A DNA stretch of 64,000 nucleotides from Amphiura filiformis (taxonomy: Eukaryota; Echinodermata; Ophiuroidea; Amphilepidida; Amphiuridae): contig NW_027305506.1 in assembly GCF_039555335.1 (NCBI RefSeq), forward strand, positions 930,001 to 994,000. Direction: 5' to 3'. This document shows positions 5,630-59,080 of this stretch, in pieces (the first letter of the stretch is position 1; every line of letters starts with the position of its first letter). Under the pieces are notes generated by a model, which was given only the letters and a program-made list of their open reading frames with translations, did no database searches and had not been told where the DNA came from. The position numbers were made by a program, and so were the translations under genes.

Positions 5630-5794
5630 CTATGAAGTCATTGGAGCTTCTTTGCTGAAATACGGTGCCGATTCATTGACTAGTAATGTGTGACAGATGT
5701 TGCAAACTGGCATACGTCTTCTCCGTGGGCCGCTTTCTACATGTTTAGTTACACATTCTGGACAGAAGACTTTACCACAGTGTTTGCAATGTTG
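5630..5794 (-). CDS. RABEP-like: Rabaptin-like gene, last exon: second half of FYVE zinc finger, and stop
   Basis: This exon codes for 54 residues and a TAG stop. It follows a minus-strand acceptor TTTTCAG|CAA at 5795 and starts in phase 0. It supplies six of the eight zinc-ligand cysteines of a FYVE finger: HCKHC, FCPEC and VCNIC. The order, with a SGPRRRR stretch and a terminal CHTLL, is that of FYVE domains, which bind phosphatidylinositol 3-phosphate on early endosomes. The signature written R-R/K-H-H-C-R is weakened here to K-K-Q-Q-H-C-K across the exon junction, so lipid binding may be reduced. The preceding exon (6045-6151) joins in phase. Vertebrate rabaptins lack a FYVE domain; invertebrate family members with one probably exist, but I could not check. 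A short tail of 15 residues follows CHTLL. Confidence 0.8.
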   Translation of the reverse strand, partial: QHCKHCGKVFCPECVTKHVESGPRRRRMPVCNICHTLLVNESAPYFSKEAPMTS

Positions 5795-6044: not shown

Positions 6045-6151
6045 CTTTTTCTTTTTGCCAAATGCTTGTTTACATCCATTACATTTCTCAGCATCGTCCT
6101 CATGCTGCCATCGCACCTCATTATCCTTCTGACGAATGTTTCTAGTTGAAC
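6045..6151 (-). CDS. RABEP-like: Rabaptin-like gene, exon with end of coiled coil and first half of FYVE finger (frame break)
   Basis: This 107-bp exon is bounded by a minus-strand acceptor TTGATAG|GTT and donor AAG|GTATGC. Its main frame gives IRQKDNEVRWQHEDD, then EKCNGCKQAFGKKKK: the W-x-x-x-D start of a FYVE finger and its first C-x2-C pair. It joins the final exon in phase 0. At the upstream edge, a phase-0 splice from the coiled-coil exon at 9853 gives VQLE, which matches the human rabaptin-5 order SQTLQVQLERIRQ as I remember it. The frame must then shift by one base between VQLE and IRQ. The exon therefore looks one base short near 6138. A real frameshift, a sequencing error or an unusual upstream donor are all possible. 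Confidence 0.75.
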
Positions 6152-6720: not shown

Positions 6721-6734
6721 ATATTGTAATGACT

Positions 6735-9700
6735 ATATTCCTACCTGCAATGATTGTGATAGCCTAACAAAGTCCCTCTGAACTGCTTCACTGTTGTCTA
6801 ACTCATATTGTAATGACTGTATTCCTACCTGCAATGATTGTGATAACCTAACAAAGTCCTTCTGCAATGCTTCACTGTTGTCTAACTCATATTGCAATGA
6901 CTATATTCCTACCTACAATGATTGTGATAACCTAACAAAGTCCTTCTGCAATGCTTCACTGTTGTCTAACTCATATTGTAATGACTATATTCCTACCTAC
7001 AATGATTGTGATAACCTAACAAAGTCCCTCTGCACTGCTTCACTGTTGTCTAACTCATATTGTAATGACTGTATTCCTACCTGCAATGATTGTGATAACT
7101 AAACCAAGTCCTTCTGCAATGCTTCACTGTTGTCTAACTCATATTGTAATGACTGTATTCCTACCTGCAATGATTGTGATAACTAAACCAAGTCCTTCTG
7201 CAATGCTTCACTGTTGTCTAACTCATATTGTAATGACTGTATTCCTACCTGCAATGATTGTGATAACTAAACCAAGTCCTTCTGCAATGCTTCACTGTTG
7301 TCTAACTCATATTGTAATGACTGCATTCCTACCTGCAATGATTGTGATAACCTAACCAAGTCTTTCTGCAATGCTTCACTGTTGTCTAACTCATATTGTA
7401 ATGACTGTATTCCAACCTGCAATGATTGTGATAACCTAACCAAGTCCTTCTGCAATGCTTCACTGTTGTCTAACTCATATTGTAATGACTGCATTCCTAC
7501 CTGCAATGATTGTGATAACCTAACCAAGTCTTTCTGCAATGCTTCACTGTTGTCTAACTCATATTGTAATGACTGTATTCCTACCTGCAATGATTGTGAT
7601 AACCTAACAAAGTCCCTCTGCAATGCTTCACTGTTGTCTAACTCATATTGTAATGACTGCATTCCTACCTGCAATGATTGTGATAACCTAACAAAGTCCC
7701 TCTGCACTGCTTCACTGTTGTCTAACTCATATTGTAATGACTGTATTCCTACCTGCAATGATTGTGATAACCTAACCAAGTCCTTCTGCAATGCTTCACT
7801 GTTGTCTAACTCATATTGTAATGACTATATTCCTACCTACAATGATTGTGATAACCTAACCAAGTCCCACTGCACTGCTTCACTGTTGTCTAACTCATAT
7901 TGTAATGACTGTATTCCAACCTGCAATGATTGTGATAACCTAACCAAGTCCTTCTGCAATGCTTCACTGTTGTCTAACTCATATTGTAATGACTGCATTC
8001 CTACCTGCAATGATTGTGATAACCTAACCAAGTCTTTCTGCAATGCTTCACTGTTGTCTAACTCATATTGTAATGACTGTATTCCAACCTGCAATGATTG
8101 TGATAACCTAACCAAGTCCTTCTGCAATGCTTCACTGTTGTCTAACTCATATTGTAATGACTGCATTCCTACCTGCAATGATTGTGATAACCTAACAAAG
8201 TCCCTCTGCACTGCTTCACTGTTGTCTAACTCATATTGTAATGACTGTATTCCTACCTGCAATGATTGTGATAACCTAACCAAGTCCTTCTGCAATGCTT
8301 CACTGTTGTCTAACTCATATTGTAATGACTATATTCCTACCTACAATGATTGTGATAACCTAACAAAGTCCCTCTGCACTGCTTCACTGTTGTCTAACTC
8401 ATATTGTAATGACTGCATTCCTACCTGCAATGATTGTGATAACCTAACAAAGTCCTTCTGCACTGCTTCACTGTTGTCTAACTCATATTGTAATGACTGT
8501 ATTCCTACCTGCAATGATTGTGATAGCCTAACAAAGTCCTTCTGCACTGCTTCACTGTTGTCTAACTCATATTGTAATGACTGTATTCCTACCTGCAATG
8601 ATTGTGATAACCTAACCAAGTCTTTCTGCAATGCTTCACTGTTGTCTAACTCATATTATAATGACTGTATTCCTACCTGCAATGATTGTGATAGCCTAAC
8701 AAAGTCCCTCTGCACTGCTTCACTGTTGTCTAACTCATATTGTAATGACTGCATTCCTACCTGCAATGATTGTGATAGCCTAACAAAGTCCCTCTGCACT
8801 GCTTCACTGTTGTCTAACTCATATTGTAATGACTGTATTCCTACCTGCAATGATTGTGATAACCTAACCAAGTCCTTCTGCAATGCTTCACTGTTGTCTA
8901 ACTCATATTGTAATGACTGCATTCCTACCTGCAATGATTGTGATAGCCTAACAAAGTCCCACTGCACTGCTTCACTGTTGTCTAACTCATATTGTAATGA
9001 CTGCATTCCAACCTGCAATGATTGTGATAACCTAACCAAGTCTTTCTGAACTGCTTCACTGTTGTCTAACTCATATTGTAATGACTGTATTCCTACCTGC
9101 AATGATTGTGATAACCTAACCAAGTCCTTCTGCAATGCTTCACTGTTGTCTAACTCATATTGTAATGACTGTATTCCAACCTGCAATGATTGTGATAACC
9201 TAACCAAGTCCTTCTGCAATGCTTCACTGTTGTCTAACTCATATTGTAATGACTGTATTCCTACCTGCAATGATTGTGATAACCTAACCAAGTCCTTCTG
9301 CACTGCTTCACTGTTGTCTAACTCATATTGTAATGACTGCATTCCTACCTGCAATGATTGTGATAGCCTAACAAAGTCCCTCTGAACTGCTTCACTGTTG
9401 TCTAACTCATATTGTAATGACTGTATTCCTACCTGCAATGATTGTGATAACCTAACCAAGTCCTTCTGCAATGCTTCACTGTTGTCTAACTCATATTATA
9501 ATGACTGTATTCCTACCTGCAATGATTGTGATAGCCTAACAAAGTCCCTCTGCACTGCTTCACTGTTGTCTAACTCATATTGTAATGACTGCATTCCTAC
9601 CTGCAATGGTTGTGATAACCTAACAAAGTCCTTCTGCACTGCTTCACTGTTGTCTAACTCATATTGTAATGACTGCATTCCTACCTGCAATGATTGTGAT

Positions 9701-9930
9701 AACCTAACCAAGTCCTTCTGCAATGCTTCACTGTTGTCTAACTCATATTGTAATGACTGCATTCCTACCTGCAATGATTGTGATAACCTAACAAAGTCCC
9801 TCTGCAATGCTTCACTGTTGTCTAACTCATATTGTAATGACTGTATTCCTACCTGCAATGATTGTGATAGCCTAACAAAGTCCCTCTGAACTGCTTCACT
9901 GTTGTCTAACTCATATTGTAATGACTGTAA
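6735..9930 (-). repeat. 84-bp tandem array, 38 copies, coding-type coiled-coil repeat with a splice donor in each unit
   Basis: The marker TCTAACTCAT starts at 6797 and recurs every 84 bp to 9905: 38 copies, 37 x 84 = 3108 bp, with no net indel. On the minus strand each unit codes for 28 residues, typified by LQKDLVRLSQSLQ, VGIQSL and QYELDNSEA. That is four heptads, homologous to the Rab5-binding coiled coil at the end of rabaptin-5. The unit is the end of exon 9853-9969 plus the start of its intron, so nearly every unit repeats the donor CAG|GTAGGA (some GTTGGA). Stops occur in nine units: CAG to TAG at four donor codons (near 6915, 6999, 7839, 8343), CAA to TAA near 8656 and 9492, and AGG to TAG in three adjacent units near 7095-7270. 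At least the part beyond 9492 is probably intronic. The opposite strand also has a long cysteine-rich open frame, judged a shadow. Confidence 0.9.
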
Positions 9931-9969
9931 TTTATTCTTAGACTCTCTCTGATCTTTCTCAAGCTTGGA
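9853..9969 (-). CDS. RABEP-like: Rabaptin-like gene, Rab5-binding coiled-coil exon
   Basis: This 117-bp exon (39 codons, phase 0 at both ends) follows the acceptor TTGTTTTCAG|TCC and ends at CAG|GTAGGA. It reads SKLEKDQRESKNKLQSLQYE and then LDNSEAVQRDFVRLSQSLQ. The second part matches the human rabaptin-5 order LDVSEQVQRDFVKLSQTLQ as I remember it, the C-terminal parallel coiled coil that binds Rab5-GTP on early endosomes. The donor at 9852 is the first of about 38 near-identical donors, because the exon end is the founder of the 84-bp array that follows. Reading through donors would append 28-residue modules in frame until a TAA near 9492. Use of the first donor joins to VQLE in the FYVE exon. 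Confidence 0.85.
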
Positions 9970-10094
9970 CTGAAAACAAACGAAGAGGAATGTTACATGA
10001 AAACAGTGGCTTTTTTGACAGTAGTAGGCAAACTATGATGAAATCTTATCTGTTTTGCTGTCAAGGCATTATTAAAGGAGGAAATAAGGAAAAG

Positions 10095-10167
10095 TGATCC
10101 CACCAGGGAATTGAACCCAGGATCTCTGGTTTACGAGACCAGCGCCTTAACCACTTGGCCACAGGGG
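10095..10167 (-). tRNA. tRNA-Thr(CGU)-like sequence, probably a pseudogene
   Basis: The minus strand has a D-arm GGCCAAGTGGTTAAGGC, an anticodon stem CTGGT/ACCAG around a loop with CGT, and a T loop TTCAATT. The acceptor stem pairs poorly and the T stem has a mismatch, so it is likely a tRNA pseudogene or the head of a decayed SINE. Confidence 0.5.
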
Positions 10168-11218
10168 CTTCATGATTAGATGCAATGGGATGACTAAAGT
10201 AAGCAATACACAGGGGAAAGAAGAATTACGCATCGCACACTAGCACATTTAAACATGAAGTTACAAATGGAAACATACCGTCGTTTTATCTTTTCAGTTT
10301 CTGTTTCCGTATCCGTAATAGTTTTTGTAAGTCATTGTTATTATGAAGTGGTAGTCTCCCAGGTATGACCAATCTTTTATTCTAGCCTTTTGTTAGTTAC
10401 TGAAAATTTGAAGCTCGTGAATTTCAGTTTTCGTTTTGGTAAGTTATATTGATTTTTTACATAAAACCTTGAGATGTGCGGTTGGGTGCCAATCTAGACA
10501 AAAGAAGAGTCTAAATTTTACGGTCCTAAATTTGCGGTAAATTGTACGGCTTCAATTGACATGTGTTTGGTGTATATGCACTTACGTCTAGTGATTCGTA
10601 AAAAAAGTCTTGCATTGAAATATATACTAACCATGTTGCCAAGTTATAAGCAAAAGTCTTTCATATTGGCGATGAAACGAGCGCCTAAAATAGTCAAATA
10701 TCTCCCAATGAGGCACGATAAGTGGTGATTTAGTAAACATGTTTTACATTGAAATGCAATACAAAAGAATTGCATTGGAGCAAAGATAATTTATTCTATT
10801 CATGGCAAGCTAATCTGATAATTGGTTGGGCCTATATGCAGACTCGGGCCCCGGGTTTATTTTAAATTTATTTTAGTTTATTTTTGCAGAGCTTATTTTC
10901 AGTCATAAATTTCGCGAGGGGGAGGGAGGGAGGGAGATACTTAAGTTGAGACTGAACAAGCGAGAGTGGGAGGGGGGTGAGGAAGAAAGAGAGGAGAGGA
11001 GAGACGGAAAGACTAGAAAGAGAAGAACTCGAGAGGAGAGAGTAGGTACCGAGTGGGGAGACTGATCATGGGGGGCAGGAGGAAGCAAAATAGGGAGATA
11101 GACATTGATACGAGGGAAGGGCGATATGCTCATAAGCGGGCCTTTTGTGATTTTAGAGCTTATTTTCAACGTTTTTACAGAAAAAAGTGGACTTTGTCAT
11201 TCGGATATACCAGAGATA

Positions 11219-11291
11219 TACCTGTGCGGGGACTAGAACCCCAGACCTCTCGCTTGTTGGGCGAGCGATCTATCCACTGAGCTACACAGAC
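11219..11291 (-). tRNA. tRNA-Val(AAC)-like sequence
   Basis: The minus strand folds as a tRNA. The acceptor arms GTCTGTG and CACAGGT pair at all seven positions (two wobbles). The anticodon stem CTCGC/GCGAG encloses CCAACAA (anticodon AAC), and a T stem TGGGG/CCCCG encloses TTCTAGT. The D stem has one mismatch. It could be a working tRNA-Val gene or a well-kept SINE head; no SINE body was recognised downstream. Confidence 0.55.
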
Positions 11292-12359: not shown

Positions 12360-12526
12360 CTTGATTCTTTTAAGATCCTCTATTTCATTTTGTAGAATGC
12401 CTATAGTTTCTTGCTTCTTGGTCTCTGTAGATTTCTGCAAACTCTCCAGCTCCTCGATACGGGATCCAAACTCCTCACGTACGTTCTTCTCATGTTCATA
12501 TTCATCTTTGTAACTCCTTAACATAA
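12360..12526 (-). CDS. RABEP-like: Rabaptin-like gene, coiled-coil exon
   Basis: This 167-bp exon follows the acceptor CCTTCACAG|TT and ends at AAG|GTACAT. It starts with two bases that complete a codon with the A left by exon 13706-13895, then codes for 55 residues, ending in phase 0. The protein is a charged coiled coil: MLRSYKDEYEHEKNVREEFG, then ELESLQKSTETKKQETIGIL and QNEIEDLKRIK. The final part fits the position of AELERIK in rabaptin-5 as I recall it. A partial, decayed copy of the start of this exon lies just upstream at 12587-12634. Confidence 0.8.
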
Positions 12527-12586: not shown

Positions 12587-12634
12587 GTCACTTCTTCTCA
12601 TACTCATACTTATCTTTGTAACTTCTTAATAACC
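12587..12634 (-). pseudogene. Partial duplicate of the 12360-12526 exon
   Basis: On the minus strand, TTAAGAAGTTACAAAGATAA and the following TATGAGAAGAAG match the first 40-odd bases of the coding exon. Substitutions introduce stops and the acceptor is gone. It is one of several local exon duplicates in this gene. Confidence 0.65.
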
Positions 12635-12921: not shown

Positions 12922-13392
12922 GCAATGTAACCAATCACAGGCACTGTAAGAAAGGTAGTTACATACACAGCAATGTAACCAATCACAGGCACTGTAAGAA
13001 AGGCAATTATATACACAGCAATGTAACCAATCACAGGCACTGTAAGAAAGGTAGTTACATACACAGCAATGTAACCAATCACAGGCACTGTAAGAAAGGC
13101 AGTTATATACACAGCAATGTAACCAATCACAGGCACTGTAAGAAAGGCAGTTATATACACAGCAATGTAACCAATCACAGGCACTGTCAGAAAGGCAGTG
13201 CAATGTAACCAATCACATGCACTGTAAGAAAGGCAGTTATATACACAGCAATGTAACCAATCACAGGCACTGTAAGAAAGGCAGTTATATACACAGCAAT
13301 GTAACCAATCACAGGCACTGTAAGAAAGGCAGTTATATACACAGCAATGTAACCAATCACAGGAACTGTAAGAAATGCAGTAGTGCCCATAC
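12922..13392 (+). repeat. 48-bp minisatellite derived from a CCAAT hairpin element
   Basis: About ten copies of a 48-bp unit begin GCAATGTAACCAATCACAGG and continue with CACTGTAAGAAAGG. One unit is about 11 bp short. The CCAATCA and CTGTAAGAAAGGCAGT parts are those of the dispersed hairpin element (as at 640-700 and 21340-21410), so the array appears to be a local amplification of half an element. Open frames on both strands result only from the unit length being a multiple of three. Confidence 0.85.
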
Positions 13393-13705: not shown

Positions 13706-13895
13706 TTAGTTCTTCTTTAGACTCATCCAGCTCTGTCTGGTATGTTTCTTCTAGGGTGTTCTTAGTATGTTGTTCTGCTTGGAGTTGATCTTTTAGGAAT
13801 CCAATCTCATTGCGAAGACTCTCCTCTATGTGTTCTGAATTGACCTTGACTGTGATGATATCTTCACGATATTTAATGCACAGCCTTTGTAAGTC
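13706..13895 (-). CDS. RABEP-like: Rabaptin-like gene, conserved coiled-coil exon (KYREDII)
   Basis: This 190-bp exon follows the acceptor TCTCTTCAG|GAC and ends at CTAA|GTATGT in phase 1. It codes for 63 residues including CIKYREDIITVK, then HIEESLRNEIGFLKDQLQAE. Human rabaptin-5, from memory, has LKYREDIINVR, then LKEQIQAEQ at the same spacing, so the match is close. It forms part of the extended C-terminal coiled coil of this endosomal Rab effector. Both splice junctions are in phase with the neighbouring exons (14896 and 12526). Confidence 0.88.
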
Positions 13896-18309: not shown

Positions 18310-18383
18310 CTTCAGCAGCATTTTTCAAACTCTCCTTTAATTCACTTCCTAGTCTTTGCTCATTGGCTACATGAGTCAAGGCC
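18310..18383 (-). pseudogene. Decayed duplicate of the 18649-18747 exon, copy 1
   Basis: The minus strand still reads THVANEQRLGSELKESLKNA and AE, close to the coding exon VANEQRLRSELEESLKNAAE. Its 3' end, including the donor, was lost where the foldback element 17821-18297 begins. Confidence 0.75.
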
Positions 18384-18452
18384 TTGTTGATTGATTTATT
18401 GATTAATTGTTGATTGATCAATCAATCTATTGATTAATTGATTACAACTAAC

Positions 18453-18530
18453 CTGGCTTGGTGCATCTTAGCAGCATTTTTCAAACTCTCCTCTAATTCA
18501 CTTCTTAGCCTTAGCTCATTGGCTACATTA
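18453..18530 (-). pseudogene. Decayed duplicate of the 18649-18747 exon, copy 2
   Basis: The minus strand reads NVANELRLRSELEESLKNAA and then loses frame by a one-base deletion (GCTGCTAAG instead of GCTGCTGAAG). The donor CAG|GTTAGT is retained, identical to that of the coding exon. The 5' part and acceptor are replaced by TGAT repeats. Confidence 0.78.
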
Positions 18531-18560
18531 GTTAGGGATTGATTGATTGATTGATTGACA

Positions 18561-18615
<55 letters not shown>

Positions 18616-18625
18616 CAATCAATCT
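18531..18625. repeat. (TGAT)n microsatellite
   Basis: Long runs of TTGA/TGAT separate the duplicated exon copies; shorter runs lie at 17740-17810 and 18385-18440. These tetranucleotide runs may have mediated the exon duplications by slippage or unequal exchange. Confidence 0.9.
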
Positions 18626-18648
18626 ATTGATTGATTGATAAAACTAAC

Positions 18649-18747
18649 CTGACTTTGTGCATCTTCAGCAGCATTCTTCAAACTCTCCTCTAATTCACTT
18701 CTTAGTCTTTGCTCATTAGCTACTTGAGTTTTGGCTTGCTCCAATTC
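18649..18747 (-). CDS. RABEP-like: Rabaptin-like gene, coiled-coil exon (intact copy of a triplicated exon)
   Basis: This 99-bp exon (33 codons, phase 0 at both ends) lies between AATTGCAG|GAA and CAG|GTTAGT. It reads ELEQAKTQVANEQRLRSELE, then ESLKNAAEDAQSQ. It matches the position of LRQANDQLEKTMKDKQELED in human rabaptin-5 (from memory). It joins upstream to the CDMCSNYE exon and downstream to exon 17294-17392, all in phase 0. Two decayed duplicates of the same exon lie just downstream at 18310 and 18453. Confidence 0.85.
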
Positions 18748-20461: not shown

Positions 20462-20540
20462 GCTGTCTGTTACAGTAGTTGTGCTTCTCATAATTGCAGC
20501 ATATATCACACAACCTGCCTAAGCTTTTCTGTTATAATTT
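20462..20540 (-). pseudogene. Diverged duplicate of the CDMCSNYE exon
   Basis: The minus strand reads SLGRLCDICCNYEKHNYCN before a stop, clearly related to GRPCDMCSNYELQLQ. It has a possible acceptor (TTATAACAG) upstream but a stop after about 22 codons. It is most likely a decayed duplicate; a truncating alternative exon is less likely. Confidence 0.7.
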
Positions 20541-31359: not shown

Positions 31360-32515
31360 TAATTAGTCCACATGTTTTCGCTGGCTGATATAGTTAGCCA
31401 GGGTTTCCTTGAATATATTTGTGTCCTCTATGTTTACTATGTGCTCAGGTAGACTGTTCCAATTGTTTATGGTGTTTGGGAAGTATGAAAAGTTATAGTA
31501 GTTGGTTCTGCCACTTAGTTTCTTGATGTTTCCCTCCTCTCCTTGAGTGGTACCCATTCCAATTTGGTCAACATATCTGTCACGCTGCTTGTCCACCTGT
31601 AATCTGTGAAAACAAAGCGTGCCCCTCCTCGTTGAATGGATTCGATTTGGTCTACCAGATCCTTAGTGTAGGGATCCCACACCGTGGAGCAATACTCCAC
31701 GTGTGGGCGTACCAGAGTCTTGAAAGCTGTGGCTCTAAGGTCACGTGGGCAAGAATGGAGATTTCTCCTCACAAATCCAAGGACCCTACTAGCTCTAGCA
31801 GTGATTTTGTTGATGTGATTCGACCACCTGAGGTCACTAGAGATCTCAATACCCAAGTAATTATGTGAGGATGTTTCTTGTAATGTTGCATTGCCCAGTG
31901 TGTATTTATGTTGTTTACGTTGTCTTGCACGGGATATTTTCAAGGTGTAGCATTTGTCTGTATTAAATGTCATCTGCCAGTTATTTTGCCATGTGGTTAA
32001 AGTGTCGAGGTCTTTTTGAAGTTGTCTAGCGTCTGTGTCGTTTTGATGGGTCTATATAGTACGCAGTCGCTGCAAATAACCTAACTGTTGATGTGATGTT
32101 GAGAGGAAGGTCATTGATGTAGAGCAAAAACAGAAGGGGTCCCAAAACCGTGCCCTGGGGCACTCCGGAGCGCACATGGACCCAATCTGAGTGCTCCCCA
32201 TTGACCACCCTCTGCTTGCGTGTTGTTAAAAAGTTGGTGAGCCATGAATGTATGTTGCCTGTGATACCATATTTGTCTAGTTTGTAAAGGAGTCTGTCGT
32301 GGGGTACTGTCACTGTGTCAAACGCTTTGGAAAAGTCCATTATAATGATGTCTGTCTGTGTGTTGTTGTCGAGTGTGTAAAAGTCATGAACTGTCTGTAA
32401 AAGTTGTGTCTCGCAAGCGTGTTTAGCACGAAAACCATGTTGTTTGTCTGTCAAAATGTTGTTTTTTTCAAGGTGCTTCATAATGTGACTATGTAAGATA
32501 TGGGGTGCTATCATC
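31360..32515 (-). pseudogene. Non-LTR retrotransposon remnant (CR1/Jockey-like reverse transcriptase)
   Basis: The minus strand carries, in order, HGFRAKHACETQLL, IIMDFSKAFDTV, RSGVPQGTVLGPLLFLLYIN (reverse-transcriptase blocks), then after a break the C-terminal region with NYLGIEISSDLRWSNHI, VEYCSTVWDP, QRGGARF and a tail NTINNWNSLPEHIV. The catalytic F-A-D-D block is damaged: a one-base deletion falls in the aspartate codon near 32068, giving FAAT and shifting frame. The N-terminal endonuclease region is missing, and the 5' end near 32515 runs into unrelated sequence. The element is dead and 5'-truncated. Order and motifs are typical of the CR1/L2/Jockey group; I cannot name the family. 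Confidence 0.85.
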
Positions 32516-33027
32516 TTCAGTAGTCCGGTTCTGATATCTGCAATCAATCCTAGGTTCCAGGATCGTGAATAGGTCAAAAAAACTGTGCACGTTAAGCCCG
32601 TGCGACAATAGAGTGTATGCAATAAATCAACCGGAACGGTATAACAATTGAAATGGCAGCCATGCTGGAGGACAGTTCTAAGATCGCTTAAGATGAGAGA
32701 GGGACAGGTCTCTAGATCGATTCCACAACCATTCATACATATAACCTGTTTTATTGTAGTATCATGCGAATTGCCCTGTGGTACCTTATGGAGGACAGAA
32801 TTTTATTTAAATGAGAATGACTCTGTCATGAGTGACGTCGTATACCCTCTATACTCAATTTGAGGTATGCACGTATACATTGTAGGAAGAAGAAGAAGAA
32901 TCAGACCCAGAACAAAATATTAATTTCTGACATGATCCTTCTTCTTCTTCTTCTTCTTTGTGATACTGCACAACGTCCCTTATGGAACTAGACGAGCAGG
33001 AAATAATGGTGTGCGCGTGTGCTGTGC

Positions 33028-40069: not shown

Positions 40070-40710
40070 AGAGAGCGTGGCGCAATGGTCAGGGTACTTG
40101 CCTTTAGTGCATGAGGTCCCGGGTTCAATTCCCGGCGGTGGCGATTTGCTGGGATATTGACTTGGAAAAAAAAGTCTGAAATTAATTGGCAACTTCTGTA
40201 GATTAAATTCGGACTTCCGTTCTCCCCATGGTTCACTTAGAATTGGGTAAATGAACAGTGTTGGAGGACTCGGGACTCGGACTCGAGTCCGGACTCGAGT
40301 CCTTTTTTCAAGGACTCGGACTCGGACTTGGACTCGGAAGCTAAGGACTTGGACTCGGACTCGGACATCAGAAATTGGCAGGGACTCGGACTCGGACTTG
40401 GACTCGGACACCAAGGACTCGGACTCGGACTCGGACTCGGATGACGAGGACTCGACTACAACACTGTAAATGAATCATGAAAGTACCCGTCCTTCGGAGG
40501 GGACGTAAAGCCGTCGGTCCCGTGTGCAGAGAGCCATTACACACCTGTACATGTAATTCGCAGCCAGTTTCGAAAAGAGTAGGGTATTAACCCCTAACTG
40601 TTCCCAATCCGTCCCGGTGTTCAAATGAACCCCAATGGAAATAAGCTTTCTTGGGTTATCCAGGGTTGTCAAATCCCGAACAAATCAAATCAAATCAAAT
40701 CAAACTGGAT
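40070..40710 (+). mobile_element. tRNA-derived SINE with internal GGACTC-rich expansion
   Basis: The head is tRNA-like with GTGGCGCAATGGTCAGGG (A-box side) and B box GGTTCAATTCC. The body holds GTAAAGCCGTCGGTCCCGTG, and the 3' end is a clean (AAATC)n run (40680-40703). In its middle (about 40266-40455) is a 190-bp array of GGACTCGGACTC-type units, which I take to be an expansion inside the element because SINE sequence continues on both sides. Confidence 0.75.
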
Positions 40711-49384: not shown

Positions 49385-49755
49385 ATAGTATCATAAGGGT
49401 AGAAGGTTGGCCCGCAAGTGCCAAGTATGCAAGGCCCAAATTTGATCCTGATGTGTGATGTCCATAAAAACTAAGCGACGCTTGGGCTATCCTGTCTAGG
49501 CTTTCATGTCAGACTTTAAGGCCTAGCCCTAGCCTACTGAGCCTAGCCTACTGGTACTACTAAGCCTAGCCTGCCCTAGACCCCAAACAGCCAACTAAAA
49601 AGGTTTTCTAAATATGTAATGTACTATCATGTATGTATTATGCTAATTATATAGCCTAGGTTTAAAACTTGAGATAAAAATATAAACATGACATTGACAA
49701 TATTTATCATTAACAACATTTTTTCCCCTTTCTGTTACTGTTTGTTTTTACACAG

Positions 49756-51473
49756 AAAAAAATGATCAGAAAACTTGGAGAAATGTCAGCCAAGACCCTG
49801 ACCGCTACTGAGACACAGATTGTATTCACGAAAGAGGAAGCTATTGACAAGTTAGGTGGTGAAGGAATCCTGGTTCAATGTCAAAAATGTGGTATATTGT
49901 GTGACAAAGGTTCAGGTTCCGTCCAGTTTTTTCACAAATCAGGACAAGAATTTTGTGCCGGTGTTTATCTGAGTGAAAACCCAGATAAATTATCCGAGTA
50001 TTTGAAAGAAATAGAAGAAGTTCAAGAAGCTCTAAATCTAGGTCTTGTCCTGGTTTTTGCTGCTGGAAGTAATAAAGAAGCAGCAGAAAAAATTGTGAAG
50101 AAACTGGTGGAGCTGTTTACTACAGACGATTGCTGTAACAAGTACTACTCGGTTAAAGATGACGTGGAGAGGCACCCAGTTCTGAATTATGAGCAATCAC
50201 GCCAAGTGCAAAGATTGATTGAACTAATATTAGAGTGTGCATATGAGGGGGATATAGGCAAAGCTGCTGGCAGTCTGAAACCTGTCTTTTCAGATGGCCA
50301 AGTCCTGTTTACAGGACTTACGCAAAAACTTTCTTTGTCGCTTTCTTACTACATGAGGCACTGTGGAGAAGATGTAAGCGAAATACATCTTCACACAATT
50401 CCTCATGTAAAAGAAGATCAAATGGAAGAGATTATGGAAGGAGCGATGAGGGAAGAGTTTGTACAAACCTATGAAGTCATGAATATGCAAGAGTCTGGTC
50501 CATTGAAAAGACAGTGTGACAGATTTGCAGAAGCAAACAGAGCCACACTAAGTGAGAGTTTTAGGGAAATGCATGAAAAGGCCGCGGATGACGATGATCA
50601 TGACACTATGGCAGTGCTCGCGGCATACATTTCCTGTGTGGAAAAGACCGAAAGCCTACCCTCCTCAAATGAAGTTGATATAACACCTATTATTAATAGT
50701 CTACAGTTCTGCACAAATCTAAAATTGAACTGCAAAGAAGGGTACTTTGGCATCGCGAATAATAGAGTAGAAAATTTGTTGCAACAAATAATAAATGATT
50801 CAATCAATCCCTGCACCCTTGCAGTAGTCCCAGAACTGGATGCCTCATCCTTGACTTACCGGCGTGTCTGTAGTAATGCCTCCGATGTAACACGTGTCAT
50901 CAAATCAATCTCAAAGATGATAAATGTACACAAACTTGACATCAGCATGAATGAGTTTGAACCAGGAGACTCATCAGTATTAGCAAATAGCCTCATTCAA
51001 TGCACGCAATTACAAGAATTCAATATGAGTTACATGAAGGGTGTTACATCGTCAGACATGGGCCTACCCCCACCCCTAGCATCCTCAGACATGAATACGA
51101 TATTCACATGCTTTGCATTTCTTGTTTCATTACGTAAGCTTAATATATCATGGAACCGATTACCAAACGTAGACAGCGTGAAATGTCTACGTAAATGTCA
51201 AGCATTGCAACAGATAGACTTGGTGAAGATGGAAGGCGATGAGGATAAGATGGCTGCATTAATTACTACAGCTGGTGAATTACCTCAACTCACAACACTG
51301 AATCTCGCCTGGAATGATGTAATTAATGACAGCAAGTGTTTCTCAGCGATTATTAGTATTTTGCCTCATCTCAGGAATCTCAGGATTTTGAATCTAGGGT
51401 ACATCAAGTTTACAAAGGAACAACTGGAGACTCTGATATCAACATCAAGAAATACATCCATGCAGCAATTAGG
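49756..51473 (+). CDS. NLR-type receptor exon: end of NTPase region plus leucine-rich repeats
   Basis: This 1718-bp exon follows an acceptor TGTTTTTACACAG|AAA and ends TTAGG|GTAAGA, two bases into a codon. Counted from the first ATG (49762): residues about 1-75 look like the helical segment after a NACHT domain, with VFTKEEAIDKLG and VQFFHKSGQEFCAGVYLS, which matches the F-x-H-x-x-x-Q-E-F/Y-x-A-A-x-Y-L signature of NLR proteins. A helical middle follows. From about residue 380, leucine-rich repeats of the ribonuclease-inhibitor type appear (KLDISMNEFE, LRKLNISWNRLP, LTTLNLAWNDV, LRILNLGYIKF). NLRs are intracellular immune receptors, greatly expanded in some invertebrate deuterostomes. No NACHT, Death or CARD exon was found upstream in the window, so the exon is either an orphan, the 3' part of a gene with distant 5' exons, or a NACHT-less derivative starting at this ATG. 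Confidence 0.85.
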
Positions 51474-51519
51474 GTAAGAAACCTAACGTTTAAGCTTACT
51501 CAAAATAATGACATAAAAG

Positions 51520-57414: not shown

Positions 57415-59080
57415 AGTATATATCTTTAAGTAAGTCTATTTTCCCTGATCTATGGAAAAAAGCAAAAGTAACACCAATCTATAAATCAGGTGACAAAACT
57501 GATGTTGGAAATTATAGGCCCATTTCTGTTCTTCCAATTGTTTCCAAAATTATTGAGAGGGCCATTCATGATCAATTGTATGTTTATGACTAATGCAGGT
57601 CTTCTCTCTGAAGATCAATCTGGTTTCCGTGCCAACCATTCAACTACCACAACTTTACTTAATGTAGAAGATTTTATACTTAAGAACATGGACAGTGGAT
57701 TCGCTACTGGTGTTATATTTATTGATTTAAAGAAAGCTTTTGACACGGTCAATCATGAAATACTACAAAAAAAAAAAAAAAATATGGTGTTCAAGGCAAA
57801 GAGCTTCTGTGGTTTAAATCATATTTGTATAAAAGATCTCAAACAGTTAGTGTAAATTCTTCTTTATCTGACTTTGAAAATGTTAATATTGGAATTCCGC
57901 AAGGATCAATCCTAGGTCCTTTGTTATTTATTATTTTTGTAAATTGTATGCCTAATGCTGTTAACTGTAAAACTATCATGTACGCAGATGACACAAGTTT
58001 AATGTGTAATGGAAAGAATGTTTTGGAATTGCAAGCTAAATTAGAGTCAAGTCTTTGCAGTGTAGCAAATTGGTTTCATGCAAACAAACTTACTTTAAAT
58101 GTTGATAAGACCAAGTTTATGGTCTTTGGTACCAACCAAATGCTTGAAAAGTTTAATGATATAAATCTAACATATGAGGATACTTTTATTATTGAACGAG
58201 TTCACGAGTTTAAATATCTTGGGAGTAAAACTTGATTCTAAACTTTCTTGGTCAGCTCATGTAGATTATTTATGTACAAATGTTTCTAAAAAAATTGGTG
58301 TCATTAGGCGTGTTAAATACTTCCTGCCTCGTCAAACCATTGTTATGTTATCAAATGCACTTGTTATGCCTCAATTTGATTATGGTAGTTCTGTATGGAG
58401 TAATTTTTCTTGTGAATCTCAAGCAAGGCTGCAAGTGTTACAAAATCAGCTAGCCAGGACAATTTTATCTGCTGATATTAGAACACCAATAAGTAACTTA
58501 ATGAGTGCACTACAGTGGATAAAACTAAATGATAGATGGAATAATCAACTTCTTATTTTAGGTTTTAAGTGTTTAAGAAACCTGGGTCCATCTTATCTAT
58601 CATCTAAATTTGAATTTGTTCATGATAGTCATATGCATATTACCAGGAATCATTCATCAAATACTCTTGTTGTACCAAAATGTAATTCAAATTCAGGCAA
58701 GCGTACATTCCATGCCAGAGCTGTTAATACTTGGAATGAAATTGCACCTCAAATCCGCAAAGAATTAAATAATATGTCTTTGTATCAATTTAAAGCACGA
58801 ACAAAATAATACGAACTGCTAAATAATTTGGAATTTCTTTTCCCTTATAAATTGTACTTTTTATAAGGACATTTTAGCTTCAGCTTGTATTTTGTATAAT
58901 CTTTGCCATATGAGTTCAATACTATTATGTTATTGATTTACCATGTGTAAGATGTAAATTTACTATGTATCAATATGTATTACAGTATTTTATAATTGTA
59001 TGAGGGCCTGCTTGGAAAGCAGTGCTTGACACTGAAGTGGAATTACCCTCAATAAAGAAAGATTATTATTTATCATATTA
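57415..59080 (+). pseudogene. 5'-truncated LINE with reverse transcriptase, frameshifted
   Basis: The plus strand holds VGNYRPISVLPIVSKIIERA, then (after a break) EDQSGFRANHSTTTTLLNVE, VIFIDLKKAFDTVNH, GIPQGSILGPLLFIIFVNC, MYADDTSLMC (catalytic aspartates kept), VHEFKYLG, and after another shift LDSKLSWSAHVDYL, LVMPQFDYGSSVWS and the tail FHARAVNTWNEIAPQIR. The interruptions are near 57585, at a 15-base A run near 57770, and near 58230. The 3' end has CAATAAAGAAAGATTATTAT. There is no endonuclease region: 5'-truncated. It is less decayed than the copies at 31-34 kb, so it is younger. Group: CR1/Rex1-like by motifs; not searched. Confidence 0.88.

Follow-up and report, generated by a model that had tools for sequence, protein, structure and literature searches.

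The window, by which we mean the whole stretch of 64,000 nucleotides analysed here, carries on its minus strand a Rabaptin-5-like gene with a putative C-terminal FYVE finger. Two of its exons exceed the gathering score of the Pfam Rab5-bind family (PF09311). One is exon B, a Rab5-bind coiled coil at 13706-13895 (2.2e-19), and the other is exon D, a 117-nt, phase 0 exon at 9853-9969 that holds the end of the Rab5-binding coiled coil (1.5e-11) together with the exonic part of the first unit of a tandem array, and whose acceptor ends at 9970 (8.31 bits). Exon C (12360-12526) is a coiled coil upstream of exon D, to which it joins in phase 0; taken alone it is without a significant Pfam match, and a query made of exons C and D matches the solved Rabaptin-5 chain PDB 1TU3 (7e-09). 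The first-pass annotation had described the exon at the array as a Rab5-binding coiled-coil exon, and these matches bear that out. Exons B, C and D are open, with consistent phases at their joins, and three of six further gene segments match PF09311 below the gathering score. Downstream lie exon E (6045-6151, 107 nt) with the first half of the FYVE finger and exon F (5630-5794) with the second half and the stop codon, both also on the minus strand; read in the FYVE frame, the two match Pfam FYVE (PF01363, 6.3e-12).

Spliced coiled-coil and FYVE exons mark the window as eukaryotic, and the gene is probably that of an invertebrate, for which the predicted architecture, a Rabaptin coiled coil with a FYVE finger after it, is unremarkable. 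Drosophila Rabaptin-5 (Rbpn-5, CG4030) likewise has a C-terminal Rab5-binding region and then a C-terminal FYVE domain, which is said to appear conserved in many invertebrates; unlike the present gene, it is described without mention of an array in the accessible part of the source (PMC3858806).

Adjoining the end of exon D, and including what the Rabaptin match indicates to be its canonical donor, is an 84-bp tandem array at 6721-9929 (minus strand) that covers the end of the exon and the start of its intron. Tandem Repeats Finder reported a period of 84, 38.2 copies, 95% matches and 0% indels, and the unit anchors (n = 38) were spaced by exactly 84 nt throughout. AGGT was present in 38/38 units and the GT was kept in all of them, confirming the earlier claim that an exon end had been amplified with its donor re-created in each copy. 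When exon D and the second unit were aligned at the donor, 74 of the last 77 nt were identical compared to only 1 of the preceding 7, and those 7 nt are, in the repeat copies, the first 7 nt of the intron. The founding duplication therefore took in 77 nt from the end of the exon and 7 nt from the start of the intron. This agrees with the earlier description of the unit as exon end plus intron start, but not with its equation with the last 28 whole codons of the exon. Because the 3' edge of the array is a partial unit, the original intron sequence just after the donor is no longer readable. The 38 units comprise 24 distinct sequences, and no run of more than two adjacent units recurs. A higher-order block structure was considered and rejected, as only two-unit runs recur and mean differences are nearly flat with the distance between units. 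On the strand opposite the array, a 592-residue open frame at 7271-9049 (plus strand) encodes a Cys-rich repeat of 28 residues, as is to be expected from an array period divisible by three.

Partial copies of exon sequence also occur elsewhere in the gene. Four of nine exon segments (A, the exon at 18747, C and D) have a same-orientation partial copy nearby, compared to 18.4% of random control segments from this region (n = 1500) and 15.7% from the whole window (n = 1500). The resulting excess at exons is weak (binomial 0.066 for the region and 0.039 for the whole window), with several of the nine segments having rough open-frame boundaries and the controls omitting the array, which counts for exon D. 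The exon at 18747-18649 (minus strand) is followed in its intron by two decayed copies of its end (18541-18453 and 18376-18310), the whole spanning 18310-18747; one copy keeps CAG|GTTAGT but has lost a base, and the other is without a donor. Just upstream of exon A lies a 47-nt partial copy of it (79%) at 20475-20521 (minus strand), and just upstream of exon C a 38-nt copy (87%) at 12592-12629 (minus strand).

The intron between exons B and C contains a second, 48-bp tandem array (12922-13381, minus strand) with ten acceptor-like sites on the gene strand. These sites, of the CTGCCTTTCTTACAG|T class, score 7.33 to 9.60 bits, and six of the ten lie above the real exon C acceptor (8.85). Sequences resembling tRNAs, possibly tRNA genes or tRNA-derived repeats, are found at 10096-10169 (minus strand), 11219-11291 (minus strand) and 40076-40137 (plus strand), the first two of them in the intron preceding the array exon. 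Inspection by eye further suggested LINE-type reverse transcriptase-like fragments in open frames at 31363-32802 (minus strand) and 57472-58809 (plus strand), as well as leucine-rich-repeat-like segments in a 587-residue open frame at 49714-51477 (plus strand).

Splice donors and the extended reading frame

The donors of the array keep CAG|GT in 34/38 cases and fall into classes of 29 CAG|GTAGGA, 5 CAG|GTTGGA and 4 TAG|GTAGGA, of which the first-pass annotation had named the first two correctly and omitted the third. Scored in bits with a weight matrix, the classes reached 9.71, 5.31 and 7.32, respectively, corresponding to the 99.3rd, 94.2nd and 97.4th percentiles of GT sites in the window. 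This scoring, which had been proposed earlier as a check, placed the main class above the four other scored donors of the gene (exon B, 3.63; exon C, 5.45; exon E, 8.32; the exon at 18747, 8.61), and the downstream array donors therefore appear strong enough to compete. Computed duplex energies with U1 were -10.7, -6.9 and -9.1 kcal/mol for the three classes in the same order, with -11.6 for the consensus and -2.6 to -5.7 kcal/mol for the exon B, C and E donors. Use of AGGT as an acceptor as well as a donor inside the array was set aside: it is possible, but the site scores 5.62 bits (93.9th percentile), below the range of 8.31 to 12.04 that the exon B to F acceptors reach.

Five donors, with GT at 9852, 9768, 9684, 9600 and 9516, lie upstream of the first in-frame stop, a TAA at 9498-9496 in unit 5; the same count had been given before, with the stop placed near 9492. 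Donor 1 (CAG|GTAGGA, 9847-9855, minus strand, GT from 9852) is probably the main one, to judge from CBS and ABCA7, and donors 2 to 5 stand in an in-frame extension at 9496-9852 (minus strand) that ends at this TAA. Exons ending at donors 1 to 5 would be 117, 201, 285, 369 and 453 nt long and all of phase 0, so the steps are indeed of 28 codons, or four heptads, and preserve the frame as had been claimed.

Since the 28 residues encoded by 84 nt are four heptads, any heptad register is kept from unit to unit. The best register over the five-unit frame has 62% hydrophobic residues at a and d positions; a rival register scores 60%, and the register is for this reason not firmly assigned. Within exon D, the best and second registers have 58% and 50%, respectively. 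In the extended frame, five Rab5-bind stretches are recognised by Pfam, and any additional unit would thus both lengthen the protein and repeat the end of the Rab5-binding region. A single-sequence AlphaFold model of the five-unit frame was of low confidence (mean pLDDT 49.2), with the helix broken about once per unit, and at that level it weighs neither for nor against any reading.

The claim that donors 1 to 5 all join one downstream exon in frame held for the steps themselves, which are phase 0, but not for the join to exon E, which as assembled puts the FYVE finger out of frame. The Rabaptin match runs from exon D across the intron into exon E, and this exon starts at 6151 with VQLE, as in 1TU3; the IRQ segment and FYVE half that follow lie in another frame, the exon being, at 107 nt, one base short of the frame needed by the finger. 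Whichever of the five donors is joined to exon E, translation runs out of the FYVE frame and reaches a stop after 50 more codons. As assembled, there is thus no in-frame Rabaptin-FYVE protein through exon E from any donor, and the missing base may be either an assembly error or a real lesion. The break does not separate the readings weighed below because all five donors are equally affected. Later acceptors that would restore the frame are unlikely, with the AGs ending at 6129, 6126 and 6105 in the FYVE frame scoring -1.87, -0.29 and -0.70 bits, respectively. The end of exon D and the start of exon F are both in phase 0, and a transcript that skipped exon E would thus keep the frame from D into F.

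Variation among units and the explanations weighed

Across the 38 units, 16 of the 84 columns vary. In a codon-by-codon reading, 5 of the changes among units are synonymous, 6 are nonsynonymous and 4 create a stop, in one case by a change of two bases. Classed column by column against the consensus, they comprise 4 synonymous, 8 nonsynonymous and 4 stop, with a neutral expectation of about 4.5, 10.1 and 1.3; this classing misreads codons 9, 11 and 15, where two columns change together, and the codon-wise reading gives the same conclusion. Stops are, if anything, in excess (chance of at least four, 0.039). An in-frame stop occurs in 10/38 units, and the chance that units 1-4 would all be free of stops is 0.28 under random stop placement. 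Variable columns make up 2/9 of the donor and 14/75 elsewhere in the unit (Fisher p 0.68); for the donor G and T both to be invariant, the chance is 0.65.

Selection on the reading frame or donor of the array was tested across the 38 units and none was seen, the test being of low power with 16 variant columns and units that are similar to one another. Within that power, unit variation looks neutral, with no constraint visible on reading frame or donor; nor is there any apparent sign in the sequence of selection maintaining the extra donors. Searches for relatives in two non-animal collections returned 30 pattern stretches from viral_contigs and 89 from genome_contigs, with 0 confirmed in either.

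With a probability of roughly 70%, we read the array as an intronic minisatellite that began with the duplication of an exon end, with donors that are passengers, splicing that proceeds mainly from the first of them and perhaps minor in-frame isoforms. To judge from the make-up of the unit, an invertebrate-type Rabaptin-5/FYVE gene underwent a short tandem duplication that took in 77 nt at the end of exon D and the adjoining 7 nt of its intron. Unequal exchange or slippage probably then enlarged this to 38 units, the donor copy observed in each unit presumably riding along. By analogy with CBS and ABCA7, most transcripts would be spliced from the donor at 9852, so that the array is removed in full along with the rest of the 3.7-kb intron. 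Where one of donors 2 to 5 is occasionally chosen, the protein would gain 28, 56, 84 or 112 residues, each step repeating a Rab5-bind segment, and transcripts from donors 6 to 38 would carry the unit 5 stop and probably decay. The two decayed copies of the end of the exon at 18747 look like such a passenger after decay, and may be a small parallel to the main array. Weighing against donors that merely ride along are the strength with which the downstream copies could compete, the CAG|GT kept by 34 of the 38, the exact 84-nt spacing taken with the stop-free first four units (at the chance given above), and the in-frame isoforms expected from donors 2-5, which would escape decay by the array stop, unlike the ABCA7 isoform.

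We regard it as unlikely that the array acts as the ABCA7 repeat does, in which case the long intronic repeat would raise skipping of exon E and the first half of the FYVE finger would be lost from an in-frame join of D and F. In ABCA7, according to the available part of the report, skipping of the next exon grows with VNTR length, by 3.2-fold from the smallest to the largest combination of diploid lengths in cell lines (PMC5954066). The phases of exons D and F are compatible with such skipping; the ABCA7 effect may, however, depend on protein-binding motifs in its 25-bp unit.

Long tandem arrays are often misassembled, and the locus or its copy number could mislead in that way or by belonging to a decaying gene copy, the array length and the exon E frame then being unlike those of a working gene. 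The single base missing from exon E would fit this explanation, as would the proneness of such arrays to misassembly, but exons B, C and D are open and consistent in phase, B and D match Rab5-bind, and the query joining C and D matches 1TU3. The number of distinct unit sequences also argues against it, and the recurring runs, being at most two units long, indicate that no large block was pasted twice. We therefore think an explanation of this kind quite unlikely.

It would be more surprising still if donors 1 to 5 were used in regulated proportions, so as to fix how long the Rabaptin rod is, or how many Rab5-bind segments it has, in 28-residue steps. Such regulation would be well served by five strong, phase 0 donors ahead of the first stop, by a four-heptad step that keeps a register through five units and by the five Rab5-bind stretches that Pfam finds in the extended frame, and use of a second donor is known from the accessible text on ABCA7 (PMC5954066). 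Against it, constraint on coding or donor beyond the neutral level was not seen (at low power), exon E as assembled throws the FYVE out of frame from all five donors, and no relative came from the two non-animal collections searched, viral_contigs and genome_contigs. The first-pass annotation had raised a splice-choice mechanism that sets the length of a tethering rod; with neutral-looking changes, frequent stops, donors no better conserved than their surroundings and a frame-broken exon E, the sequence lends that idea no support. Just as improbable, in our judgement, is that a boundary-spanning minisatellite with a period that is a multiple of both three and the heptad turned donor choice into a dial for in-frame length and valency. 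Were this true, donors 1 to 5 would place one to five Rab5-bind end segments ahead of the same FYVE exons, and splicing noise or individual array length would set the reach of an endosomal tether and its avidity for Rab5. Hardly credible is a buffer of decoys, in which the 38 donors (38 U1-like sites in 3.2 kb, with the duplex energies predicted above) would recruit U1 snRNP but not be spliced, protecting the intron against premature polyadenylation or adjusting splicing. The donor columns are no better conserved than the remainder of the unit, and copying of the founding donor accounts in full for the sites.

Repeats that span an exon boundary multiply a donor almost unchanged and so provide natural tests of how the spliceosome chooses among near-identical 5' splice sites. 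Here 38 donors follow one another in whole-codon steps, and the products of donors 2-5 would be without the array stop, so that leaky choice could be measured free of that decay loss. The array also illustrates how, with a shift in donor choice, a duplication within an intron could give rise to repeats in the protein.

Comparison with known boundary-spanning repeats

The human CBS gene carries a 31-bp VNTR, the original paper on which is reportedly Lievers 2001. Named c.1444_1467+7(16_21), it consists of an exon end and 7 intron bases in 16 to 21 copies, according to the part of the source available (PMC2630376), and a review, in its accessible text, places it at the boundary of exon 13 and intron 13 and associates more units with lower CBS activity (PMC5188458); the same VNTR is also treated in PMC1395315. 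From the name, each CBS unit would re-create the donor. Our array resembles it in having a unit made of an exon end and 7 intron bases, but the exonic part in CBS is, by name, 24 nt compared to 77 nt here, and 31 bp is not a multiple of three (PMC2630376).

The human ABCA7 VNTR in intron 18 has a 25-bp unit and alleles of about 12 to 427 units, and its first GT is the canonical exon 18 donor, as described in the accessible sections of the report (PMC5954066). Retention of one unit through the second donor, which shifts the frame, was seen in cDNA at 2 +/- 1% independently of VNTR size, and premature-stop transcripts rose when decay was blocked (PMC5954066). Because this frame-shifted isoform is exposed to decay, the 2% may understate donor choice and is better taken as a lower bound. 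As in ABCA7, the present array includes the canonical donor of its exon. In contrast, a 25-bp step is not a multiple of three and shifts the frame, the ABCA7 array as described begins on the intron side of the junction, and its length affects skipping of the next exon and leaves unit retention unaffected (available part of PMC5954066).

A further comparison is with intron gain by tandem duplication of exon segments bearing AGGT, set out in the accessible part of one source as the Rogers model and for ATP2A1, along with examples from fission yeast that extend over two and four repeats of 24 bp (PMC4974935). The unit of our array also holds AGGT, and its junctions could in principle serve as both donor and acceptor, but here the intron existed before the duplication and its start lies inside the unit. 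Such an origin does not fit this content of the unit, nor the Rabaptin match that spans exons D and E across the intron.

The first-pass annotation knew of no described example of such an array. The kind is in fact known, as the CBS and ABCA7 VNTRs include the exon's own donor; in the available portions of the open-licence literature on such repeats, we found no described case of a boundary-spanning VNTR with every step in frame, and to that extent the earlier statement stands. Judged from its make-up, the array belongs to the same kind as the CBS and ABCA7 repeats, that is, VNTRs that lie across an exon-intron boundary and carry re-created donors. Its departure from both is that the period keeps the frame and the heptad, so that use of donors 2-5 would alter the protein without a frameshift.
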